Origin: a virus
IMG/VR virus record: IMGVR_UViG_3300030202_000372
Span: 1-23,867 of that record
Strand: one strand, 5' to 3'
Length of the DNA stretch: 23,867 bases
In this document: positions 3,001-22,328 of the stretch, in pieces
How positions within the stretch are numbered: position 1 is the first letter of the stretch
Layout: the number at the start of each line of letters is the position of its first letter
Position numbers and translations under genes: made by a program
The notes under the pieces: generated by a model
Database searches by the model: none
Seen by the model: the letters and a program-made list of their open reading frames with translations, nothing else
What the model was told of the DNA's origin: nothing

Positions 3001-4254
3001 ACCAAGTATTTGATCAAGGTAATAATCTTGACTAGCTTCTGACGTAGTCTTTGTATTATGTTTTGTTTCAAAATCTTTTGCTAAATTATATGCTTTCTTT
3101 TCAATAGATTCTAAATATTTTTCTATGGTTCTTGATCGCGCTTTAATTTCTCTTTTAGCTTCTGATGATATTTGATAACCAAGCCCTGTTAGTTGTCCTT
3201 GTGATGTAAACCTTTCTAAAAAACCAGAAAGTTTTTTTAATCTTCTTTCTAATGGGTCCTTACTATCTCTAGTAAATAATTTCCATTCTTGAAATTTAGG
3301 TAATTGTTTTGCTCCAGTGCCTATTCTAATTGGTGCTAATGCTTTGTTTACTACAAATGCACTTGCATTTCTTATAGCTTTACCAGCAGGAGCCGGTATT
3401 GCTTTTGCTCCAAGGTACGTGATCGGTGATACAACGGCCTTGTCTACTACTTTTAATCCAATCCCTGCTACCTTTGCACCAGGTTTAAAAATACCATACT
3501 TAAAACCAAGAGCCACTGGTTTACCAATCATTGAAAAACCACCACCAATTAATGCACCTTCAGCGCCAAATCTAACCCTGTTTCTTAATTTAGTTAATGC
3601 TAAATCTCTACCTTGTAACCCTTCTGTCTTTTCTTCTTTTACAAATAAAGTTTCTTTATCAGGAGTAGATGCGATAAAATCTGTTGCAGCAAAAGCACTG
3701 GCCATGTATCCAGCTCTTTTTGCAATCTGTGATGTTTTTTGTAAAGTAGTTCCAGTAGCAGCTGCTTTTCTACTTCTTTGAAATATTTTAAATCTATTTA
3801 ATATTTTAAATGCTGCACCACCAGGTAAACCATATTGTGTAAGAACTTTTGTAATAGAACCTGTTAGTGTTTCAGGATCTTTTATTTTATTTTCTTGATA
3901 AACTTCATCTAACTTTTCTGAAAGATCTGTTCCAGCCGCTGCATCAATACCTGATGTAAGTAAATCACCAATAGCATAACCTAAATCTTGAACCCCTCCT
4001 GTAAGACCTTTTTCTATATCTTCAAAAAAATCTATATAATCTTTTTCTTTTTCTTTTGCTCCACCTGCAAGTTCTTTTAATCTATCTAATTTCTTTGTGT
4101 CAAAAGGGTTTGTTGAAAACATGGAAGTAGAAAGATTTGTTAAACCTTTCCATGTAAACTTTACAGGTTTTTTCTTTTTGTTTAACGCGTCTCTAATAAT
4201 AGTTTGAAGCTGATCCGCTTCTACTTGTGGGTCTTTTTTTTTAAAAGGGTCCAT
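55..4254 (-). CDS. Giant internal virion / DNA-ejection-type protein (1399 aa)
   Basis: This is the largest gene in the window. The protein is Lys-rich and basic at its start (residues 1-35), with a long Gly/Ala-rich hydrophobic stretch at about 228-310 and another at about 948-978 (RLLGAYVTLVGTGKAVG), separated by long charged, mostly helical segments. The C-terminus is disordered, Pro/Gln-rich, and ends in an arginine cluster (RQRSRRV). There is no signal peptide, and I see no confident lysozyme or transglycosylase motif. Size, membrane-active stretches and position as the last of four coupled genes after the tail nozzle match the largest ejection protein of short-tailed phages (P22 gp16 / T7 gp16 role). 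Marine homologues are sometimes annotated as internal virion or DarB-like proteins. A strong Shine-Dalgarno (AGGAGGG) lies in the end of the previous gene, one base before which that gene stops. Role is inferred from context. Confidence 0.75.
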   Translation of the reverse strand: MDPFKKKDPQVEADQLQTIIRDALNKKKKPVKFTWKGLTNLSTSMFSTNPFDTKKLDRLKELAGGAKEKEKDYIDFFEDIEKGLTGGVQDLGYAIGDLLTSGIDAAAGTDLSEKLDEVYQENKIKDPETLTGSITKVLTQYGLPGGAAFKILNRFKIFQRSRKAAATGTTLQKTSQIAKRAGYMASAFAATDFIASTPDKETLFVKEEKTEGLQGRDLALTKLRNRVRFGAEGALIGGGFSMIGKPVALGFKYGIFKPGAKVAGIGLKVVDKAVVSPITYLGAKAIPAPAGKAIRNASAFVVNKALAPIRIGTGAKQLPKFQEWKLFTRDSKDPLERRLKKLSGFLERFTSQGQLTGLGYQISSEAKREIKARSRTIEKYLESIEKKAYNLAKDFETKHNTKTTSEASQDYYLDQILGYLKGNVKLKSVAPDLQGSAKSLNNELLQIKEKFADLLPQGDLKNFMLNNLKTYMRQSFSIFTNPNYQPDKKIYDGAVNWVAKNVVQANKDLRQEALKTLKTGKMTDKQAIDEMAEALTDKILKAGKQDGADPLRQLQAISGKEFLRTDRIIRTGEELPDAIRKLLGQEDNLKSSVLTTTSHAITHATNKQAFDKLAKVGLDEGWLFRSKAASDAKRYFDTEKIGDIKSLGLLKTDMSKLYATPELTQVFRQTRKGLDTWIQNGVYRNILQLKVAAQYGKTVLSPVTQVRNVTSASLFPLANGHIGGRASVSESLKMTIDDIFGAGKVIDENAFIKNVENKIKLGVLDENIVASELKAVLQEIKSTKGLTSLDKIIRTLSDGKFAFDDTALKKTGETISKFGKGATRVYAGGDNMWKWYGHEYVKSQLRGLYSKTSDISKWYDEIVGRKFDPVNTFTGKLKTFDESVDEAAAWYIRNTYPTYSKVPEFVQSIRKLPFGNFVSFPAEMMRTTYNIVELGAKEATSSNPKLRQMGLRRLLGAYVTLVGTGKAVGATAEALTGVTLEEIEAYKRSLSAPWEKRAQIVPINKWKEGVGKAINFSYFSPYDVVTKPIEAIFKQWQEGTVKGQDIGEKLLAQAFNQDGPVRTLLDPFITQSIALERFTDVLPAGIGLGNRGGVTKTGAKVYSDTDSSGDKIAKSFIHILKGVEPGAVTTGRKVIQGAQEDVSRGGVPANLRDEILALLSGVRIINIDVPRTMQYKITEYNRNKRSVTATEKFFSLEDFRQRGPEAMGQEFKDIQDENLKVNKEFYQILQDAQTMGVSSKELKKIMRKRGLSARNANFLIKGKNIPYTGYDGRMRKKVIDAKKLAKDRGETINKEYFYPKRLFREILREYKKKSLIPEEEQPGIIDRGLDVVKDLFSSVPQQDTSIQQANIQTPPLPNTPMPRVQNIAQNIIPTTGLTQTESALLSPGEQLIRQRSRRV

Positions 4255-11050: not shown

Positions 11051-11079
11051 TGTATAGATTATTTTTAAATTTTTGTCAA
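11051..11079 (-). promoter_or_regulatory. Candidate sigma-70 promoter for the nozzle/ejection operon
   Basis: On the minus strand TTGACA (11079-11074, perfect -35) is followed by exactly 17 AT-rich bases and TATACA (11056-11051, four of six -10 matches). The -35 lies inside the last codons of the 211-aa oxygenase gene, and the -10 is in the largest gap of this half of the window. It would start transcripts about 90 bases before the nozzle ATG, allowing the tail and ejection genes to be expressed independently of the oxygenase array. Host sigma-70 use is inferred. Confidence 0.6.
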
Positions 11080-11700
11080 CTTAACACCTCTAAATGAAGA
11101 AGGCAAACCTACCAAAGGTCTCTTATCTAAGTAGTTTTCTTTAGCATTTTTAGCGTTAGCTTTATTGTAATGTAGAAATACTTGTCCACAGTTATCACCT
11201 TTAAATTCATCTCTCCAATGTTCAAGTTCACATCCAGAATAAATTAACATATCTCCAGGTTTTAAATCTACTTTTATACCTGCTTGACCTCTCTTACCCG
11301 TTGGATCAAGATATATTGGCCAAGGATCACCACCTAAATTTAAAGTAGTAGATATTTCGCATGAATATCTATCTTTGTGACGAGCCAAAATATCACCTTC
11401 TTTGTAGATTCTTGCATAGGAATATGTAGGACTTAACTCAATACCGGTGTGTTTTTCCATCACTGGTTTTACTTCCTCTAGTAAAGTTTCCATTGCAATG
11501 TCGCTGTAATGTGAATAAGTGTTTGGAACTTGCCCATCATTCCACGCACCAAAATATTCTGTAAAAGGTGATATATATTTTTGATCAAATAAAAATCTTG
11601 CAACTTCTCTTTTGTTTAAAAAATATTTATAAACAAAATTTGCTAATTTAGGTGATATGGCTTTTTTTAATATTGTATATTTATTTTTTTTAAAACTCAT
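11065..11700 (-). CDS. 2OG-Fe(II) oxygenase-like protein, HxD type (211 aa), eighth of array
   Basis: The core reads YARIYKEGDILARHKDRYSC, with the candidate iron ligands His108 and Asp110 (HKD). After the beta phrase EISTTLNLGGDPWPIYLD comes GDMLIYSGCELEHWRDEF with His161. The position where an Arg usually salt-bridges 2-oxoglutarate (before the last strand) is occupied by CGQVFLHY, so the co-substrate Arg is not obvious; Arg163 two residues after His161 is the nearest. I recall the phrase GCELEHWR...QVFLHY from cyanophage proteins annotated as 2OG oxygenases. It is the last gene of the array, overlaps the preceding one by ATGA, and its 3' end contains the -35 of the next promoter. A hand-counted 60-base sample (11101-11160) is 22/60 G+C, closer to the backbone than the array core. 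Confidence 0.75.
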   Translation of the reverse strand: MSFKKNKYTILKKAISPKLANFVYKYFLNKREVARFLFDQKYISPFTEYFGAWNDGQVPNTYSHYSDIAMETLLEEVKPVMEKHTGIELSPTYSYARIYKEGDILARHKDRYSCEISTTLNLGGDPWPIYLDPTGKRGQAGIKVDLKPGDMLIYSGCELEHWRDEFKGDNCGQVFLHYNKANAKNAKENYLDKRPLVGLPSSFRGVKLTKI

Positions 11701-12287
11701 TTTGGTGTTACTGATAAATTAAATGATAAACTTATTCTATCTTCGTTTGAATTATTTTTTTCAACAAGATGCTCTACATATCCAGGAAACATTACAAATC
11801 TATTTTCTTCAGGTTGTATAAAAAAACTATCACAGTTCAATACATTAGTTTCTTTTGCTGGTAAATCAGCAATGCCATCCATTCTATAGGTACTATTTTT
11901 TATTAAAACTAAATTTCCACAATCTTGCGGTGTTTTTAAATAATACACACACGCAAACTCAGAACAAGGATGAACGTGCGGTCTATTTTTATTTCCTTTA
12001 TTATTTATGTTTAACCAAGCATTTTTTACTTTAATATCTAATTGACAATCAAACGCATAAGTGTGTATGTTTTCTGTAATAATTGTTTGCAGCTTACCTA
12101 TTAGGTTTTGAAATTCAATAGAGTCTTTCATTCCTTTAGTTTGATAACCTCCTACATTTGTTTTTTGTTGTGAAGGTTCTCTAGATTTTATTTTGTAAAC
12201 CAACTTTATTAAAGCTTCTTTTTCTAAATTCGTGTCCTTGACATCTTCTACAAATACTGGCGTAGAAAACATAGTAAAATGTGTCAT
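11697..12287 (-). CDS. 2OG-Fe(II) oxygenase-like protein, HxH type of the TIGR02466/PF13759 kind (196 aa), seventh of array
   Basis: The N-terminus MFSTPVFVED and the phrase KNAWLNIN before RPHVHPCSEFACVYYLKTP (His104, His106) match the general pattern of the 'putative 2OG-Fe(II) oxygenase' family TIGR02466, where HxHP-S is followed by a YYL strand. The distal half is NRFVMFPGYVEHLVEKNNS with His173, then EDRISLSFNL with Arg184 as the likely 2OG-binding residue. The usual HxD aspartate is a histidine here, so the iron site may be HxH...H or may use another ligand. It overlaps both neighbours by four bases (ATGA). Substrate unknown; a cytosolic enzyme is expected. Confidence 0.8.
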   Translation of the reverse strand: MTHFTMFSTPVFVEDVKDTNLEKEALIKLVYKIKSREPSQQKTNVGGYQTKGMKDSIEFQNLIGKLQTIITENIHTYAFDCQLDIKVKNAWLNINNKGNKNRPHVHPCSEFACVYYLKTPQDCGNLVLIKNSTYRMDGIADLPAKETNVLNCDSFFIQPEENRFVMFPGYVEHLVEKNNSNEDRISLSFNLSVTPK

Positions 12288-12871
12288 AGTGTTACCTTTG
12301 ATGTTGGACCACCCAAGTCTCCTTTAGGTAATGCATTAAAAGCTATTGAGTATCTATCTTCTTTTCCATGATATTTGTTTATTTGATGATAGATATAATT
12401 AGGAAAAAGAATCATTTCATTTTTATTACTTTCAATATAATAAGATAAAGAGTTGTATTGATTATATTCCGTGGGTTCTATATTCCAAAAATCACTTTCA
12501 TATGGTTTATGTATTTTTATTTGATTACTATCTTTTAAATAAAAAACACCACTTAAAATACAATGAGAATGTTTATGCATTGATGAATACCCCCCTGTTT
12601 TAGTTTTAGTGGCCCAAGCTTCAATAATTCTAAATTTTACATTTAATTTCATTTTATCATTTAACCAATCATCACAAGCTTGCATGACACTTTTTTTTAA
12701 ATTAGGTAGTTGATCTAACAATGATTTACAATCAGAACTTCTTAAACAATCTTTGCCTTCAATAGGAACGTATGTTAAATTTTTTAAAGTATCTAATATT
12801 TCGTCACAGTCTAAATTAAATTTATATTTTAATATAGGTTCTGCAAATAAATTTAAATTTTCTACATTCAT
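12284..12871 (-). CDS. 2OG-Fe(II) oxygenase-like protein, HxH type (195 aa), sixth of array
   Basis: The beginning NLFAEPILKYKF and the core EAWATKTKTGGYSSMHKHSH (His99, His101, His103), then ILSGVFYLKD, fit the TIGR02466-like pattern. The distal motif NEMILFPNYIYHQINKYHGK supplies His162 (or His168), and EDRYSIAFNALPKGDLG supplies Arg173. The ending IAFNALPKG-G is recognisable from homologous marine phage and bacterial proteins. It starts in an ATGA overlap with the 155-aa gene and ends in an ATGA overlap with the 196-aa gene. A hand count of 12421-12480 gives 14/60 G+C, lower than the flanking structural genes, while 12301-12360 gives 22/60. Substrate unknown. Confidence 0.8.
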   Translation of the reverse strand: MNVENLNLFAEPILKYKFNLDCDEILDTLKNLTYVPIEGKDCLRSSDCKSLLDQLPNLKKSVMQACDDWLNDKMKLNVKFRIIEAWATKTKTGGYSSMHKHSHCILSGVFYLKDSNQIKIHKPYESDFWNIEPTEYNQYNSLSYYIESNKNEMILFPNYIYHQINKYHGKEDRYSIAFNALPKGDLGGPTSKVTL

Positions 12872-13335
12872 ATTTTTTTAAAATCCATAGCAATTGTTAT
12901 TCTTTCTTCTTTACATTTCATAACACTGTGTGGTGTTTGTGAATCAAATAATACTAACATTCCATTTCTTTCAGGTATGGGAATTACTTTATTATTTAAA
13001 TCATAAAAAATCAAGGGGTTATATTTAGAAGATTTAATTATTAAGATAGAACTTATAACGTCTTTTTTATGATCATGTAATTTTGCGTGATCTCCTTTTT
13101 CGTAAAAATTTACCCAATAACATTTCATTTTCCATTTATCATTAGTAATTCTAAATAAATTTTCACAGATATCTTTTTCTAATACTTTAAAAAAATTATA
13201 GCTTGGGTTAAATCCTGAAGTTTTTGCCTCTACTGAATTTAATTTTTTTGTCCACCCATCTTTTTCTTTATATATAAAATTTTTAATATTGTTATTAACT
13301 TTTTTATTAATGTATGAAATAGTAAAATTAATCAT
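12868..13335 (-). CDS. Short 2OG-Fe(II) oxygenase-like protein, HxH type (155 aa), fifth of array
   Basis: This is the shortest member. It keeps the double-stranded beta-helix core: CYWVNFYEKGDHAKLHDHKK (His87, His89), VISSILIIKSSKYNPLIFYD, then GMLVLFDSQTPHSVMKC (His136) and EERITIAMDF (Arg145). The N-terminal lid found in the longer members is reduced. It overlaps the upstream gene by eight bases, the deepest overlap in the array, and the downstream gene by four. The region encoding its N-terminus is extremely AT-rich (13261-13320 counts 5/60 G+C). It could be a minimal active oxygenase or a degenerate cupin; the intact His/His/Arg set favours activity. Confidence 0.72.
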   Translation of the reverse strand: MINFTISYINKKVNNNIKNFIYKEKDGWTKKLNSVEAKTSGFNPSYNFFKVLEKDICENLFRITNDKWKMKCYWVNFYEKGDHAKLHDHKKDVISSILIIKSSKYNPLIFYDLNNKVIPIPERNGMLVLFDSQTPHSVMKCKEERITIAMDFKKI

Positions 13336-13900
13336 AAAAATTATACGCTAAAGTAATTCTAGTTAAGTCTTCTTTTTGAGCTTCAACAGAATGATCCAAA
13401 TCAGATTTAAACATAATTAAAGTATCTTTTTTTGGTTCAATAAAATAAGTCTTCCAAGTATATATGTTGTTAGGATCAAAATCAGGTGTGTTTGGGTTGT
13501 CAGGTAAAGGACTTTTAAAATGAGTTTTAGCAGAATTAGAATCTGCTTTTAAATAATAAATAACAGAGATCAAAGCAAAATTATGATTGTGCCATTCTTG
13601 ATAGTCTTTTTTATTATACAAATTAAACCAACCGGTTGTTTTATTTAAATTAAGTTTTTTAAATCCTAAAACATTAGCAAATAAATTTACTTCTTTTACT
13701 ATCCAATTATTTAAATCTTTAAATTTATCATCTTTGTAAATATTGTATGTGTACGAAGAGTTAAAAACATTTTTACTTAACCAATGTTTTCCTCCTTGTT
13801 CAACTTTTTTTGATAAATTAAAACAATGATCAATTAGATGTTTTGTGTCTACAGAATTGTTTTTAACAATATTTAAAGGAGTGGGAAATAAATTAATCAT
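13328..13900 (-). CDS. 2OG-Fe(II) oxygenase-like protein, HxH type of the TIGR02466/PF13759 kind (190 aa), fourth of array
   Basis: It opens with LFPTPLNIVKNN, the FPTP start typical of TIGR02466-like proteins. The core is TTGWFNLYNKKDYQEWHNHN (His104, His106), FALISVIYYLK, then KDTLIMFKSDLDHSVEAQ (His170) and EDLTRITLAYNF (Arg181). The 2OG oxygenase fold is therefore well supported, with His instead of Asp in the HxD position. The insertion KSPLPDNPNTPDFDPNN between the two halves is Pro/Asp-rich and probably a loop over the active site. It overlaps the upstream gene by ATGA and the downstream gene by eight bases, so translation is probably coupled. Confidence 0.82.
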   Translation of the reverse strand: MINLFPTPLNIVKNNSVDTKHLIDHCFNLSKKVEQGGKHWLSKNVFNSSYTYNIYKDDKFKDLNNWIVKEVNLFANVLGFKKLNLNKTTGWFNLYNKKDYQEWHNHNFALISVIYYLKADSNSAKTHFKSPLPDNPNTPDFDPNNIYTWKTYFIEPKKDTLIMFKSDLDHSVEAQKEDLTRITLAYNFYD

Positions 13901-14463
13901 TTGGGTTCAGAATATTGATAATTAAACCAACCTGTTACTATCCATTTATCTATTTTACAGGGTAGACCTCTATGACGATGAGTAAAATCACTAGGCCATA
14001 AAACAGTTAAACCTTTTCTAGGTTCAATTTTTAATTTTTGCCAATAAAATTCAGTTTCACCACCATCTCCTAGATTAACATCATTTAAATAAGTCATAAA
14101 AACAACTTGTCTGTCACAAGTTTCTAAGGCCCCTCTTTCGTAATGGTATTTAAAAAAGCCGCCTTCATCTGCTTCATAGTGTTGTATATTTGTTCCAAGT
14201 TTTGATGTTTGTAAAAAACCTTTTATAAAATAAAATTTCATATAATCACTTACAAAGTGAGATATTTCTTGAAAATATTTTTTTATAAAAGGAGTATTAT
14301 TATTATTTAAAAAGGATACATCAGTAGAATTTTTTACTTGTAAATCTATTCCCGAACTAACAGTTCCTTTTCCTTTGTATTCAGTATTATTTTTGTGGTA
14401 CTCTATAAATTGATCACACAAATTTATATCATTTAATTGATATGTTTTTATAAAAGTTTCCAT
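13897..14463 (-). CDS. Prolyl 4-hydroxylase-like 2OG-Fe(II) oxygenase, HxE type (188 aa), third of array
   Basis: The core NIQHYEADEGGFFKYHYERG contains His107-Tyr-Glu109, followed by RQVVFMTYLNDVNLGDGGET (the GG-ET phrase after the major strand is typical of P4Hc/PF13640-type enzymes), then GLTVLWPSDFTHRHRG with His162/His164, and KWIVTGWFNY, where Lys173 would bind the 2OG carboxylate. Animal and plant prolyl 4-hydroxylases use HxD with a Lys; the Glu here is a conservative change I recall from phage homologues. Known members hydroxylate Pro or other residues in proteins. It is the best candidate in the array for a protein-modifying enzyme. It overlaps the upstream gene by one base and the downstream by four. 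Confidence 0.82.
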   Translation of the reverse strand: METFIKTYQLNDINLCDQFIEYHKNNTEYKGKGTVSSGIDLQVKNSTDVSFLNNNNTPFIKKYFQEISHFVSDYMKFYFIKGFLQTSKLGTNIQHYEADEGGFFKYHYERGALETCDRQVVFMTYLNDVNLGDGGETEFYWQKLKIEPRKGLTVLWPSDFTHRHRGLPCKIDKWIVTGWFNYQYSEPK

Positions 14464-14954
14464 TACCTATAATTTATATTTATATTAAATCTAGCTTTCG
14501 CATTTGTACAAGTTGAACTAGCGTGTTTTTTATTTCCTTCAAAAAATAAAATTCTATTTTCCTTAGAATCAATTTTTTTATTTTCAAACGATGTAAAACC
14601 ATCACACGTGTTTAAAGAAAACAAAGCTGACTTATGTTCATAAGGATAATCTACATGTAATTCATTTATATTTATTTTTTCAGATCTAGGATATAAATTT
14701 ACCACAACTCTAATAACTTCATTATGGGGTATAAAAAATAATAAATTTTTAGTAAATAAATTCCAATAACCACTTGGAGTATTATCTAAAAATACATTAT
14801 GAGTCATATAATAACTTAAATCTTTTTGATCATTTTTATGATTTATATTTATTTTTTCTTGAAAATACCAAGGAAAATAAGAACTAAATATTTCTTTCTT
14901 TAATATATTTAAATTTTCTTGCGGTAAAAAATTATCTTTTATTTCGTAATTCAT
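14463..14954 (-). CDS. 2OG-Fe(II) oxygenase-like protein, HxD type (163 aa), second of array
   Basis: The core VVVNLYPRSEKININELHVD (His100, Asp102) continues YPYEHKSALFSLNTCDGFT, then NRILFFEGNKKHASSTCTN (His144) and AKARFNININYR (Arg155). The HVDYPYEHK...LNTCDG...CTNAKAR pattern is one I recall from T4-like cyanophages, where it is annotated as a 2OG-Fe(II) oxygenase. The His/Asp/His/Arg set is complete, so catalysis is plausible. It overlaps both neighbours by one base (TAATG). The start of this gene's downstream end is AT-rich (14461-14520 counts 13/60 G+C). Substrate unknown. Confidence 0.8.
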   Translation of the reverse strand: MNYEIKDNFLPQENLNILKKEIFSSYFPWYFQEKININHKNDQKDLSYYMTHNVFLDNTPSGYWNLFTKNLLFFIPHNEVIRVVVNLYPRSEKININELHVDYPYEHKSALFSLNTCDGFTSFENKKIDSKENRILFFEGNKKHASSTCTNAKARFNININYR

Positions 14955-15571
14955 TATCTATAACTATTCCCATCATTCCAAATCACTAAACTATATCTTG
15001 TGCCAGAAGTTACTGGTTTAACTCTATGCCAAACAAAAGATGGGAAAACTATAATAGTTCCTTTAGTTGCTATATTTCTAAGATCATGTGCTTTTCTTTT
15101 AAAATCAGGACGTTCATCTGTTGCTAATTCTAGTTGTCCTCCTTCATATTCTTTAAAATCATTTAAACAAACAGTAACGGATAACTTTCTCATTAAACCT
15201 ACAAACTCAATTGAGGGTGCTTCCTTAGCAGAACCTTCTTTTACTTTTTGATAAGGTTTTACCCAAGCATCTACATGCCAATCGTAAAACTGACCTGGTT
15301 GGTAAACAGTAAATTGACATTTTTCGCTTCTACTAAATTCATAATTCCAACCAGCGTTTTTATTTGCTTTATGCACATAAGGCATAATTTCTTTATATAT
15401 CCAAGGATCATTTAACCAAGCAACGTTTGATTTTCTTATTTTACCATTTAAAGAAGCGTCACCAACAACTGCATTTTCTGTTGTATGTTGTAAACCATAT
15501 CTTACAATATCATCACATAAACGTTTTGGTACGGCACTTTTAAAATACCAATACAAATACTCTATATTCAT
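14954..15571 (-). CDS. PKHD/PiuC-type 2OG-Fe(II) hydroxylase (205 aa), first of array
   Basis: This is the clearest member. CQFTVYQPGQFYDWHVDAWV carries His99 and Asp101, LSVTVCLNDFKEYEGGQLEL is the conserved second block, and GTIIVFPSFVWHRVKPVTSG carries His182, followed by TRYSLVIW with Arg192. This order is diagnostic of the P4Hc/PKHD hydroxylase family (YbiX/PiuC-like). Some 39 bases separate it from the upstream fibre gene, with no hairpin and no visible Shine-Dalgarno before the ATG, so its initiation may be leaderless-like, weak, or dependent on upstream translation. It has G+C like the backbone (15001-15060 counts 21/60), in contrast to the middle of the array. It overlaps the next gene by one base (TAATG). 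Confidence 0.9.
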   Translation of the reverse strand: MNIEYLYWYFKSAVPKRLCDDIVRYGLQHTTENAVVGDASLNGKIRKSNVAWLNDPWIYKEIMPYVHKANKNAGWNYEFSRSEKCQFTVYQPGQFYDWHVDAWVKPYQKVKEGSAKEAPSIEFVGLMRKLSVTVCLNDFKEYEGGQLELATDERPDFKRKAHDLRNIATKGTIIVFPSFVWHRVKPVTSGTRYSLVIWNDGNSYR

Positions 15572-19993: not shown

Positions 19994-20701
19994 CTATGGG
20001 TTTGCTGATTTTACTGGTATTCGAATAGCGCCATCTGTGTAGTCGTCTCTTCGTCTTCTACCAACTTGTTCGTTAGCAAACTTTTGTACCTCTTGTTTAT
20101 ATTTATTTTCGTAAAGTGTCAACATATCAATTGGACCTTTTAAAAACCCATATGTCTCTGAAAGACAGCAATATAATAGACCATTTGGAAAGTTCATGCT
20201 TATATAATTTGTAGCATTTCCAGACTCTAAAGTAGCTGGCATTTTATTATAATGCACTCTAAATTTGTAAGTATCATCAGGAACTGGTGCAAGAAACATT
20301 CTTCCTGATGTAGTATCGGTATCTCCAGTCGCTCCTCCATACATAGAATAATACTTTGGTTTACCTCTTTTAGCAGAAGCCGTTGAAGATACATATTCTT
20401 GTAAATAAGTTACATCTTTTTTTTCTAACCAAGTATTAGCACCTGTTATAGCAGAATTAGAGTCATAAACTTGTATACCTCTTACAAACAATGCACCTGC
20501 AGGAGCATTAATTGATTCTTGACCTATAACTAAATTACCTGATTGCTGTAATCTATCTGCATCAATAGGAATATCTCTCATAATTCTATATTGAGAATTT
20601 AAAATTATATTTTCTAAAATATCTGTAGTTAAAACATTAGAATCTGTTTCAGTGTAATTTCTTATCTGTGTAACTAAAGTTGAATAACTTATCCCAGCCA
20701 T
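19994..20701 (-). CDS. Head-tail adaptor-like / tail tubular protein A-like (235 aa)
   Basis: The opening ISYSTLVTQIRNYTETDSNV, then LTTDILENIILNSQYRIMRD, is helical and recognised in marine short-tailed phages as an adaptor or tail tubular A-like start. The centre is beta-rich (GNLVIGQESINAPAGALFVR, RGIQVYDSNS, MFLAPVPDDTYKFRVHYNKM). The end returns to helix: LLYCCLSETYGFLKGPIDML, then YENKYKQEVQKFANEQVGRR and a basic cluster RRRR-DD. Helix-beta-helix arrangement and position downstream of the capsid module support a role as a ring joining portal to nozzle. The 249-aa protein upstream has a similar overall plan. It starts in a TAATG overlap with the 35-aa gene. Confidence 0.72.
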   Translation of the reverse strand: MAGISYSTLVTQIRNYTETDSNVLTTDILENIILNSQYRIMRDIPIDADRLQQSGNLVIGQESINAPAGALFVRGIQVYDSNSAITGANTWLEKKDVTYLQEYVSSTASAKRGKPKYYSMYGGATGDTDTTSGRMFLAPVPDDTYKFRVHYNKMPATLESGNATNYISMNFPNGLLYCCLSETYGFLKGPIDMLTLYENKYKQEVQKFANEQVGRRRRDDYTDGAIRIPVKSANP

Positions 20702-20808
20702 TATGCTACTATCTCCTTACAGAATGGACAACTTTTTGTGAAACTAGTGTGATTCCAACAATGTTGTTTTTTTAAAAGTCTATACCAAAAAATTTTAATT
20801 TTATTCAT
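20701..20808 (-). CDS. 35-aa zinc-ribbon-like miniprotein
   Basis: This tiny gene begins MNKIKIFWYRLLKKQHCWNH and ends KEIVA. Its start overlaps the upstream stop and its stop overlaps the next start (TAATG both times), so it exactly fills a 106-bp hole with no leftover bases, strong evidence that it is translated. Residues Cys17-Trp-Asn-His20 and Cys27-Pro-Phe-Cys30 form a CxxH-x6-CxxC arrangement able to bind one zinc ion. The first 15 residues are basic and aromatic. The function is unknown: candidates are a nucleic-acid binding or assembly-stabilising peptide of the head-tail joint. Confidence 0.7.
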   Translation of the reverse strand: MNKIKIFWYRLLKKQHCWNHTSFTKSCPFCKEIVA

Positions 20809-21416
20809 TATGCTTCTATGGTTACGGGTCCAATTGAACAACCGTATCCACCTCCTTTTATATTACCTGTTGTAGCAGTATTTGTGTCAACTGTAAAAAA
20901 GAAAAAGTTATCTGTTAAGTAAGAATTTCTTGCATCTCTTCCAGGATTACCAGATCCATCTGAATCTGCTTTGTATTTTCCAGTTCTTATTGTGTACCCT
21001 GTAGATTTTGCAATATTTGCTCCTGATATACCATCAAAACTTTCTGGGTTTGCATAAGTAAAAGCACTCCCTGCAGAAGTAGTTGGTGGTCCTCTAAACC
21101 TATATGTTGTTGAATCTGTTAAACCATGTCCAGGTGAAAACACGTTTATAATCCCTGATCCTGAAGCGTAAGTTTCAAAACCATTGTTAACTATTCTAAC
21201 AGTTGTAGCGGGTTCTGTTCTATCTGGTCTTACTTGTAGTAGTGCAATACCATCACCACCTGTTGGTTTTGGTTCTAGTTGTGGCTGTTTTGGTTCAAAC
21301 TCTGTGTAGTGTACAAACGCACCATTCCACTCTCTAACCATTTCTCTATACGGAAATTCTAAACCCGATCTATCTGAAATAGCTTTTGAATGTTTTCCTG
21401 TTGCGTACTTAGACAT
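20808..21416 (-). CDS. Conserved marine-phage virion protein (202 aa)
   Basis: The N-terminus MSKYATGKHSKAISDRSGLE, then FPYREMVREWNGAFV, is a pattern I recall from cyanophages and other marine phages, where the protein is classed as a structural tail or neck component. Residues 30-60 are Pro/Glu-rich (FEPKQPQLEPKPTGG), after which the protein is beta-rich with STTYRFRGPPTTS, IRTGKYKADSDGSGNPGRD and NFFFFTVDTNTATTGN. It ends in GCSIGPVTIEA. No enzyme motif or signal peptide is seen. The start overlaps the stop of the 53-aa gene, and its stop overlaps the ATG of the zinc-ribbon miniprotein. Confidence 0.75.
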   Translation of the reverse strand: MSKYATGKHSKAISDRSGLEFPYREMVREWNGAFVHYTEFEPKQPQLEPKPTGGDGIALLQVRPDRTEPATTVRIVNNGFETYASGSGIINVFSPGHGLTDSTTYRFRGPPTTSAGSAFTYANPESFDGISGANIAKSTGYTIRTGKYKADSDGSGNPGRDARNSYLTDNFFFFTVDTNTATTGNIKGGGYGCSIGPVTIEA

Positions 21417-21577
21417 TAATTACCTAAAGGTTTATCAACATTGCCGCTTGCTTTTACGGTTAAAGAAATTATATCGCTTACATCCATAGCACCTAATAAA
21501 GATTCAAAATCTCCTATGGGTAAAGGTTCAACCCCTATTTCTCTAACTGCTCTAACATAATCTTTGTATTGTTCCAT
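21416..21577 (-). CDS. 53-aa conserved-looking small protein
   Basis: The gene starts MEQYKDYVRAVREIGVEPLP and ends NVDKPLGN. A longer in-frame reading with an upstream ATG at 21634 exists, but I chose 21577 because it lies one base after the previous stop, is preceded by AGGA at eight bases, and avoids a 56-base overlap whose extra residues look like out-of-frame translation of the upstream gene. A first helix with charged residues is followed by a Gly-Asp-Phe-Glu-Ser-Leu segment and a short beta-like tail. Function unknown; coupled to the virion protein gene by TAATG. Confidence 0.72.
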   Translation of the reverse strand: MEQYKDYVRAVREIGVEPLPIGDFESLLGAMDVSDIISLTVKASGNVDKPLGN

Positions 21578-21578
21578 A

Positions 21579-22328
21579 TTAAGTTCCTGGGTAATAAGCT
21601 TTTGGTGTAATAAATGTACTAGAAGCTGAACCATCTTCTGCCAAGGCTCTTGCTAATTCATCTTCATAATATAATTTCATTTGTTGAACCAATTGCGGTT
21701 GATATTTTTGTGCAAGATAAAAAGCTAACCCTGAAGTCATACAAGGTACAAATCTAAAAGGTAAATCTGTTGCGTTTGTATAATCCCCTACGTCTTGAAT
21801 TCTTTTTATGTAATAGAAATGCATATCTTTAGATGCATTAGTTGAATCAGGTGTAGGGTAAATACTAATACTAGTGTAATCAATAAATCTTTGGACCCAA
21901 TATTGATTAGGTGTTCCTTTAGAAAGTTTATTTGAAAAACCTCCATAAGTAGATCTATCAACTTTAGTCATAGGACTATCTGATTGATTTGTTGCTGTTC
22001 TATTACTTCTTAATTGTGCTTCAAGGACATCAGATATTCCATAAACACCATTTGGATTTGAAACAGCACTTGTACCATCAGAAGATGCTCTAAAAAATTT
22101 ATATTCAGCTTGTCCTTCAATTAAATCAAGATCTAATTCTCCTATTTCCCAATAATGAATACCTCTATTACCCCATTCTTGAAATAAGATATTAAGAGAT
22201 CTTCGGGCTGACTTCATTTGATAGCCAGCCACAGAATTTAATCCGATACGTTCAAAAGCTTCTTCTATTATTTCATCAATAGCAAAAGTTTTATCGAACG
22301 TTGTAGTGCCCGAGGTAGTATTAGCCAT
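21579..22328 (-). CDS. Head-tail adaptor, P22 gp4-like (249 aa)
   Basis: The region FDKTFAIDEIIEEAFERIGL, then NSVAGYQMKSARRSLNILFQ and EWGNRGIHYWEIGELDLDLI, matches the helix-turn-helix start of the tail accessory (gp4-like) adaptor family of podoviruses, with its conserved RIG-x-x-x-x-x-G-x-x-x-x-x-A-R-R-S-L-N. A beta segment with ISDVLEAQLRSNR and WVQRFIDYTSISIYPTPDST follows, and the C-terminal helices FVPCMTSGLAFYLAQKYQPQ plus MKLYYEDELARALAEDGSAS complete the expected plan. It joins the portal to the tail. No lysozyme-like motif known from P22 gp4 is evident. GGAG precedes the ATG; the spacing to the previous gene is 11 bases. Confidence 0.8.
   Translation of the reverse strand: MANTTSGTTTFDKTFAIDEIIEEAFERIGLNSVAGYQMKSARRSLNILFQEWGNRGIHYWEIGELDLDLIEGQAEYKFFRASSDGTSAVSNPNGVYGISDVLEAQLRSNRTATNQSDSPMTKVDRSTYGGFSNKLSKGTPNQYWVQRFIDYTSISIYPTPDSTNASKDMHFYYIKRIQDVGDYTNATDLPFRFVPCMTSGLAFYLAQKYQPQLVQQMKLYYEDELARALAEDGSASSTFITPKAYYPGT

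Follow-up and report, generated by a model that had tools for sequence, protein, structure and literature searches.

The minus strand of the window, the whole 23,867-base stretch of viral DNA analysed here, carries a neck/tail operon around a micro-ORF of 35 residues (positions 20701 to 20808, stop codon included) that translates as MNKIKIFWYRLLKKQHCWNHTSFTKSCPFCKEIVA followed by a stop codon. Upstream of it lies a 202-aa gene (20808 to 21416, minus strand) matching phrog_28581, a family of unknown function, at E 1e-36, and downstream a 235-aa SU10-type adaptor (19994 to 20701, minus strand) recognized by Pfam PF24175 (E 2.2e-16) and phrog_10775 (E 1.1e-37). The original prediction had described a CxxH-x6-CxxC motif in a 35-residue frame with TAATG at both ends, and we confirm this description on the window sequence: C17, H20, C27 and C30 are the ligands of a predicted zinc knuckle (codons C17 to C30, positions 20719 to 20760, minus strand), and TAATG overlaps, both on the minus strand, join the stop of the 202-aa gene to the micro-gene start (20806 to 20810) and the micro-gene stop to the adaptor start (20699 to 20703). 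The latter junction recurs nearly universally in relatives, but TAATG at both ends is not a rule of the family, the usual 5' junction in the adaptor-drawn sample being an ATGA overlap (47/55 loci, against 5/55 of TAATG type and 3/55 others). In AlphaFold2 models of low confidence (mean pLDDT 66.7 and 65.6), the zinc knuckle is preceded by a basic N-terminal helix (codons 3-13, positions 20770 to 20802, minus strand, listed at mean pLDDT 66.7) and a further helix follows CPxC.

The gene preceding the micro-gene has a conserved N-terminal part and a length of about 164-278 aa among relatives, a variation which marks it as itself a variable neck-region gene. Next to it, a 72-aa ORF (21416 to 21634, minus strand) overlaps the end of a 249-aa gene by 56 bases and has no significant match in PHROGs or Pfam.

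The closest named relatives of the adaptor belong to Pelagibacter phages HTVC027P (43%) and HTVC023P (35%) and to phage 023Pt_psg01 (34%). Among the records carrying a micro-gene at this site, hereafter slot 1, the longer ones (G001, G002, G003 and G005) have a PolA matching HTVC027P at 51-64% as well as a 216-aa gene matching at 80-81% a query from a relative that carries the second site described below; we therefore assign them to HTVC023P-like phages. Neither gene was matched in the shorter carriers G004 and G007. Elsewhere on the minus strand of the window (11065 to 15571) lies a run of eight adjacent genes, each 155-211 aa long; six of them match 2OG-Fe(II) oxygenase families in Pfam. According to PMC9599517, HTVC023P-type phages have eight non-orthologous 2OG-Fe(II) genes, often nearby but not adjacent, whereas in the window at least five stand adjacent in a row.

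Coding evidence and the four ligands

Viral contigs were searched for DNA able to encode K[KQ][HY]CWxHxx[FY]T, a pattern which fixes the first two ligands and leaves the two later Cys free. Both later Cys were present in 48/48 stretches, and in 48/48 the stop lay in TAATG ahead of an adaptor homologue, whose homology begins at residue 1 in 47 cases and at residue 13 in one (L126). C17, H20, C27 and C30 are invariant in two alignments, A1 (18 rows) and A2 (32 rows), so that the four Cys/His ligands are kept among homologues as in a zinc knuckle. Pairwise dN/dS over 33 unique sequences of the window's class was 0.32, or 0.29 once the stretch that some of them share with the upstream gene is excluded, with dN somewhat underestimated as the search pattern fixed some codons; the adaptors from these loci gave 0.16. 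Third codon positions accounted for 44% of the differences between the micro-genes. Every class with enough sequences gave a dN/dS of 0.26 to 0.51, which indicates purifying selection. A value of about 0.3 gives no hint that any class is diversifying under selection, a point that weighs against the host-interaction role proposed below.

Among 186 unique slot-1 peptides, the zinc loop never occurs with a ligand missing. A looser pattern, C..[HC].{4,9}C..C, applied to ATG-started ORFs of 20-120 aa in 80 loci (among them the window and L001, a piece of it), returned 27 rows, two of them outside the slot. The comparison of ligands and dN/dS that had been proposed as a check therefore comes out in favour of the gene: its translation is supported by the kept frame, a dN/dS of about 0.3 and the conserved junctions, and metal binding by the all-or-none retention of the ligands, from which the micro-protein is predicted, probably correctly, to bind metal. 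Loss of Cys/His residues in close relatives had been named as what would speak against the claim; it does occur, through replacement of the whole gene, but decay does not, and slot-1 copies that keep the module retain all four residues. As far as sequence comparison reaches, the window ORF is a true gene, coding under purifying selection, and its four Cys/His ligands are kept wherever the module sits in slot 1.

The gene belongs to no family named in the libraries searched. The window peptide had no match in PHROGs or NCBIfam and one in Pfam, to PF14447 Prok-RING_4 (19.4 bits, E 0.00098). Membership in that family was rejected, as the score lies under the curated cut-off of 27 bits and none of nine other slot peptides matched; the two share a CxxH...CPxC spacing over residues 15-32 of the peptide, but overlap only in part, at profile positions 22-38 of 46. 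Nine other micro-proteins gave chance-like matches only against Pfam, PHROGs and NCBIfam, and of two sequence profile searches of the PDB one returned eS10 at E 1.4, taken as chance, and the other nothing. Against phage isolate records, tblastn with the window peptide found two Gordonia phage Bakery records at E 5, which were rejected, and with the other four micro-proteins (slots 1 and 2) found no match; in bacterial and archaeal genomes searched with A3, none of eight pattern stretches was confirmed. Within the terms used, a literature search for small zinc proteins of phages and pelagiphages yielded no description, and the available parts of PMC9599517 and PMC12753301 do not mention the micro-gene. 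The micro-genes are thus unnamed by any family library searched, while their kind, exchangeable phage accessory genes, is already known.

Occupancy of two slots and exchange at the first

Occupancy of slot 1 was assessed in two adaptor-drawn samples that overlap in some contigs and contain near-duplicates. The first comprised 80 loci and the window, of which 73 were informative after eight of the 81 rows were dropped (three without an adaptor start, two with <75 bases upstream, three cut); a micro-gene is present in 65/73 and absent in 8/73, and 24 of the 65 have the zinc motif. The second, 80 loci retrieved with an adaptor that has 63% identity to that of the window, left 69 informative loci (five had no ORF found, four were cut, two were short), with a micro-gene in 47, zinc motif included in 36, and none in 22. 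Slot length is 1 mod 3 with a spanning ORF in 55/55 first-sample loci with a known upstream stop, rows that are homologous, partly duplicate and not 55 independent tests, and known gaps are 1 mod 3 in 40/41 of the second sample. The micro-genes of both samples encode 25-71 residues, and where one is missing the flanking genes are joined directly by the same TAATG. Among slots roomy enough for a micro-gene, 3/215 (L240, L365 and L147, with gaps of 305-468 bases) contain no ORF fitting the measured slot. Five isolate records inspected have no slot-1 micro-gene.

The occupants are composite. Basic N-terminal helices join several C-terminal modules, namely zinc knuckles, KQKKIRLKH or KINRKH tails, or none: among the 186 unique peptides, helix types N1, N2 and N3 are each paired with KQKKIRLKH, with KINRKH and with zinc heads, while N4, the type of the window (class N4+ZnD), occurs only with its own zinc head. 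These class labels (N1-N5, ZnA-D, TA, KI) are hand-written regular expressions that were altered between counts, and in the first sample a faulty ZnA expression moved most ZnA rows to ZnC, leaving only the zinc and non-zinc totals usable. Profiles of the zinc and KQKKIRLKH modules run on 70,513 stop-to-stop ORFs gave 384 and 314 TAATG-ending matches (E<1e-3) against 2 and 0 elsewhere, counts that include duplicates and cross-hits and come from loci centred on the slot, hence biased toward it.

Exchange is clearest between near-identical phages. Between the window and locus L302, identity is 99.6% in adaptor DNA, 99.3% in the next protein and 95.4-99.5% over the aligned stretches upstream, whereas their micro-proteins are 18.6% alike, L302 having an unrelated, non-zinc version in the same slot. 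Identity stops at the 5' junction and returns at TAATG, with breaks near the gene borders, and about 100 bases ahead of the 5' junction are also more divergent. All slot-1 sequences come from metagenome contigs and single chimeras are possible, yet both arrangements recur, that of the window in L127, L130 and L099 (adaptor 99% at the amino acid level) and that of L302 in L002 and L003 (99%). Pairs of loci share their module class in 80-96% of cases, by bin, at 92-100% adaptor DNA identity, and in 37% at 88-92%, where the downstream protein is still 88% alike (median). On an adaptor tree of 123 rows, at least 57 class changes (75-90 in 200 shuffles) and at least 14 presence/absence changes (21-27 in 200 shuffles) are required; being fewer than in shuffles yet many, these indicate classes that are partly inherited and turn over often. 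Such comparisons demonstrate that the whole micro-gene is swapped between near-identical neighbours, and, read from sequence, the slot is a modular and exchangeable micro-gene site.

Two zinc-pattern matches away from the adaptor slot brought to light 27 loci whose micro-gene follows the same plan, comprising a basic helix, a linker and CxTHxR[YF]KKSC, mostly with one more Cys. In each of five loci examined over their whole length, this slot 2 has the 216-aa gene (phrog_3704; in L463 seen as a 101-aa part) on one side and a Cys-rich mini-gene on the other. All four ligands are in frame in 18/19 distinct C-terminal ends. In L474, near 3352-3429, the zinc part is out of frame with the micro-gene start, possibly through decay or a sequencing error. 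The Cys-rich mini-gene that directly follows the zinc micro-gene in L469 (4111 to 4272, plus strand), and also in L454, L456, L463 and L471, is about 45-63 aa long and metallothionein-like in look; the L469 copy has no match in Pfam or PHROGs. Other occupants differ: in G005 and G002 (L486 and L487), 33-aa and 40-aa micro-ORFs behind the 216-aa gene have an apparent membrane span at the end, G001 and G003 have no micro-ORF of at least 28 aa starting at the junction, and HTVC023P has a 30-aa ORF slightly further on. Membrane spans and amphipathic character in slot 2 were read off the sequence, not computed. At the same place in HTVC027P (L475:3141-3299), gp12 (QGZ17793.1, a hypothetical protein of this isolated pelagiphage) is a 52-aa micro-protein that resembles the window peptide in combining a Cys/His-rich part with a basic, Trp-rich end, but its parts are reversed (metal part first, helix last) and its ligand spacing differs, which makes the likeness one of plan.

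Proposed role and alternatives

Two known kinds of protein offer comparison. Small zinc-knuckle and zinc-ribbon proteins likewise have four short-spaced Cys/His ligands with basic and aromatic residues between them and, going by the low-confidence models, a helix after CPxC; the micro-gene differs in that it can do without its zinc head, non-zinc tails taking that place, and searches of Pfam, NCBIfam, PHROGs and the PDB gave it no sequence match. Phage morons and small superinfection-exclusion proteins, such as T4 Imm and phage T5 Llp, are small, dispensable and exchanged, some of them acting at membranes. The micro-gene resembles them in size, dispensability and exchange, and the slot behaves as a moron site does, being filled, empty or refilled among close relatives with conserved flanks; the micro-gene differs in being itself built from swappable modules and in its predicted translational coupling to neck genes. 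A moron in the classical definition has its own promoter and terminator, for which the TAATG and ATGA junctions leave no spacer.

The versions share a charge plan, with medians of +4 for the N-terminal helix, -3 for the linker and +3 to +5 for the head. We propose an accessory micro-gene translated from an exchangeable, modular slot in the neck-gene operon of HTVC023P-like (SAR11) phages, its product made together with the neck proteins through translational coupling. The basic N-terminal helix, amphipathic in some versions, would dock on a protein partner or at the surface of a membrane; a short linker, frequently acidic but almost missing from the window version, would extend a small basic head; and this head, in the window a zinc knuckle, may contact an anionic or host target. 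The micro-protein is predicted to be probably membrane-docked. Against such docking of the window helix, which has a charge of +5 over residues 1-15, stands its hydrophobic moment (p 0.2): significance is limited to N1 and N3 (p<0.01), with p 0.1-0.2 for N2, N4 (the window) and N5. Basic and aromatic residues between the ligands also make nucleic-acid binding a possible candidate activity. We place slightly less than even odds, about 0.45, on the reading as a whole, in which a docked helix with a zinc or basic head serves as a host-interaction factor.

The original prediction had also suggested a part of the neck. As an obligatory component this is not supported, near-identical neck genes being found with an unrelated non-zinc version and other phages sharing those genes, including the five isolates, with no micro-gene in this slot. 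A minor component of the virion, with a basic peptide and its zinc head sitting at the neck or close to it, binding the packaged DNA end or an adaptor ring and varying because neck interfaces differ, would suit the position between two neck genes, the tight translational junctions of all carriers and the basic, aromatic loop; we consider this rather unlikely, given the absence of the micro-gene from 8/73 and 22/69 informative loci and five isolate records, the slot-2 zinc relative behind a non-structural gene near DNA polymerase, and the swap beside a 99.6% identical adaptor, which implies that the micro-gene is not tracking its neighbour. Head turnover and frequent absence are easier to reconcile with a host-interaction factor (for takeover, superinfection exclusion or counter-defence) than with a component of the virion. 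Less probable again are neutral or selfish cassettes recombining into permissive operon junctions with little use to the phage: the frequent changes of presence (at least 14 on 123 rows) at two junctions would be expected of them, but the purifying selection seen in all classes that had sufficient sequences and a frame kept in 55/55 and 40/41 slots would not. The ORF might also serve only as a bridge for ribosomes between the 202-aa gene and the adaptor, its peptide without a role, as the stop/start overlaps at both ends and the very varied peptides could suggest; this is very improbable in view of the all-or-none ligands and a dN/dS of about 0.3, and loci without an ORF join both genes by the same TAATG, so that a spacer is unnecessary. 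A chance ORF with a chance Cys/His pattern, conceivable for 35 codons without a family match above a curated cut-off, is refuted by homologues in dozens of contigs that keep frame, ligands and place at a dN/dS of about 0.3.

The main surprise is that near-identical phages have different tiny genes, assembled from interchangeable parts, in the same place, so that module shuffling is seen here inside genes near the usual annotation cut-off. A slot that differs between near-identical phages is the kind of site expected for phage-host or phage-phage conflict, and the micro-proteins are small enough to be synthesized, which makes metal binding, membrane docking and effects on the host directly testable. 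In a broader and more doubtful extension of the host-interaction reading, conserved operons of HTVC023P-type ocean phages would hold two or more micro-gene ports, through which micro-proteins of about 25-75 residues, with a membrane-docking helix and a zinc or basic head, are swapped as a fast-evolving arsenal for host interaction or phage exclusion; if so, that arsenal would be largely missed by gene callers.
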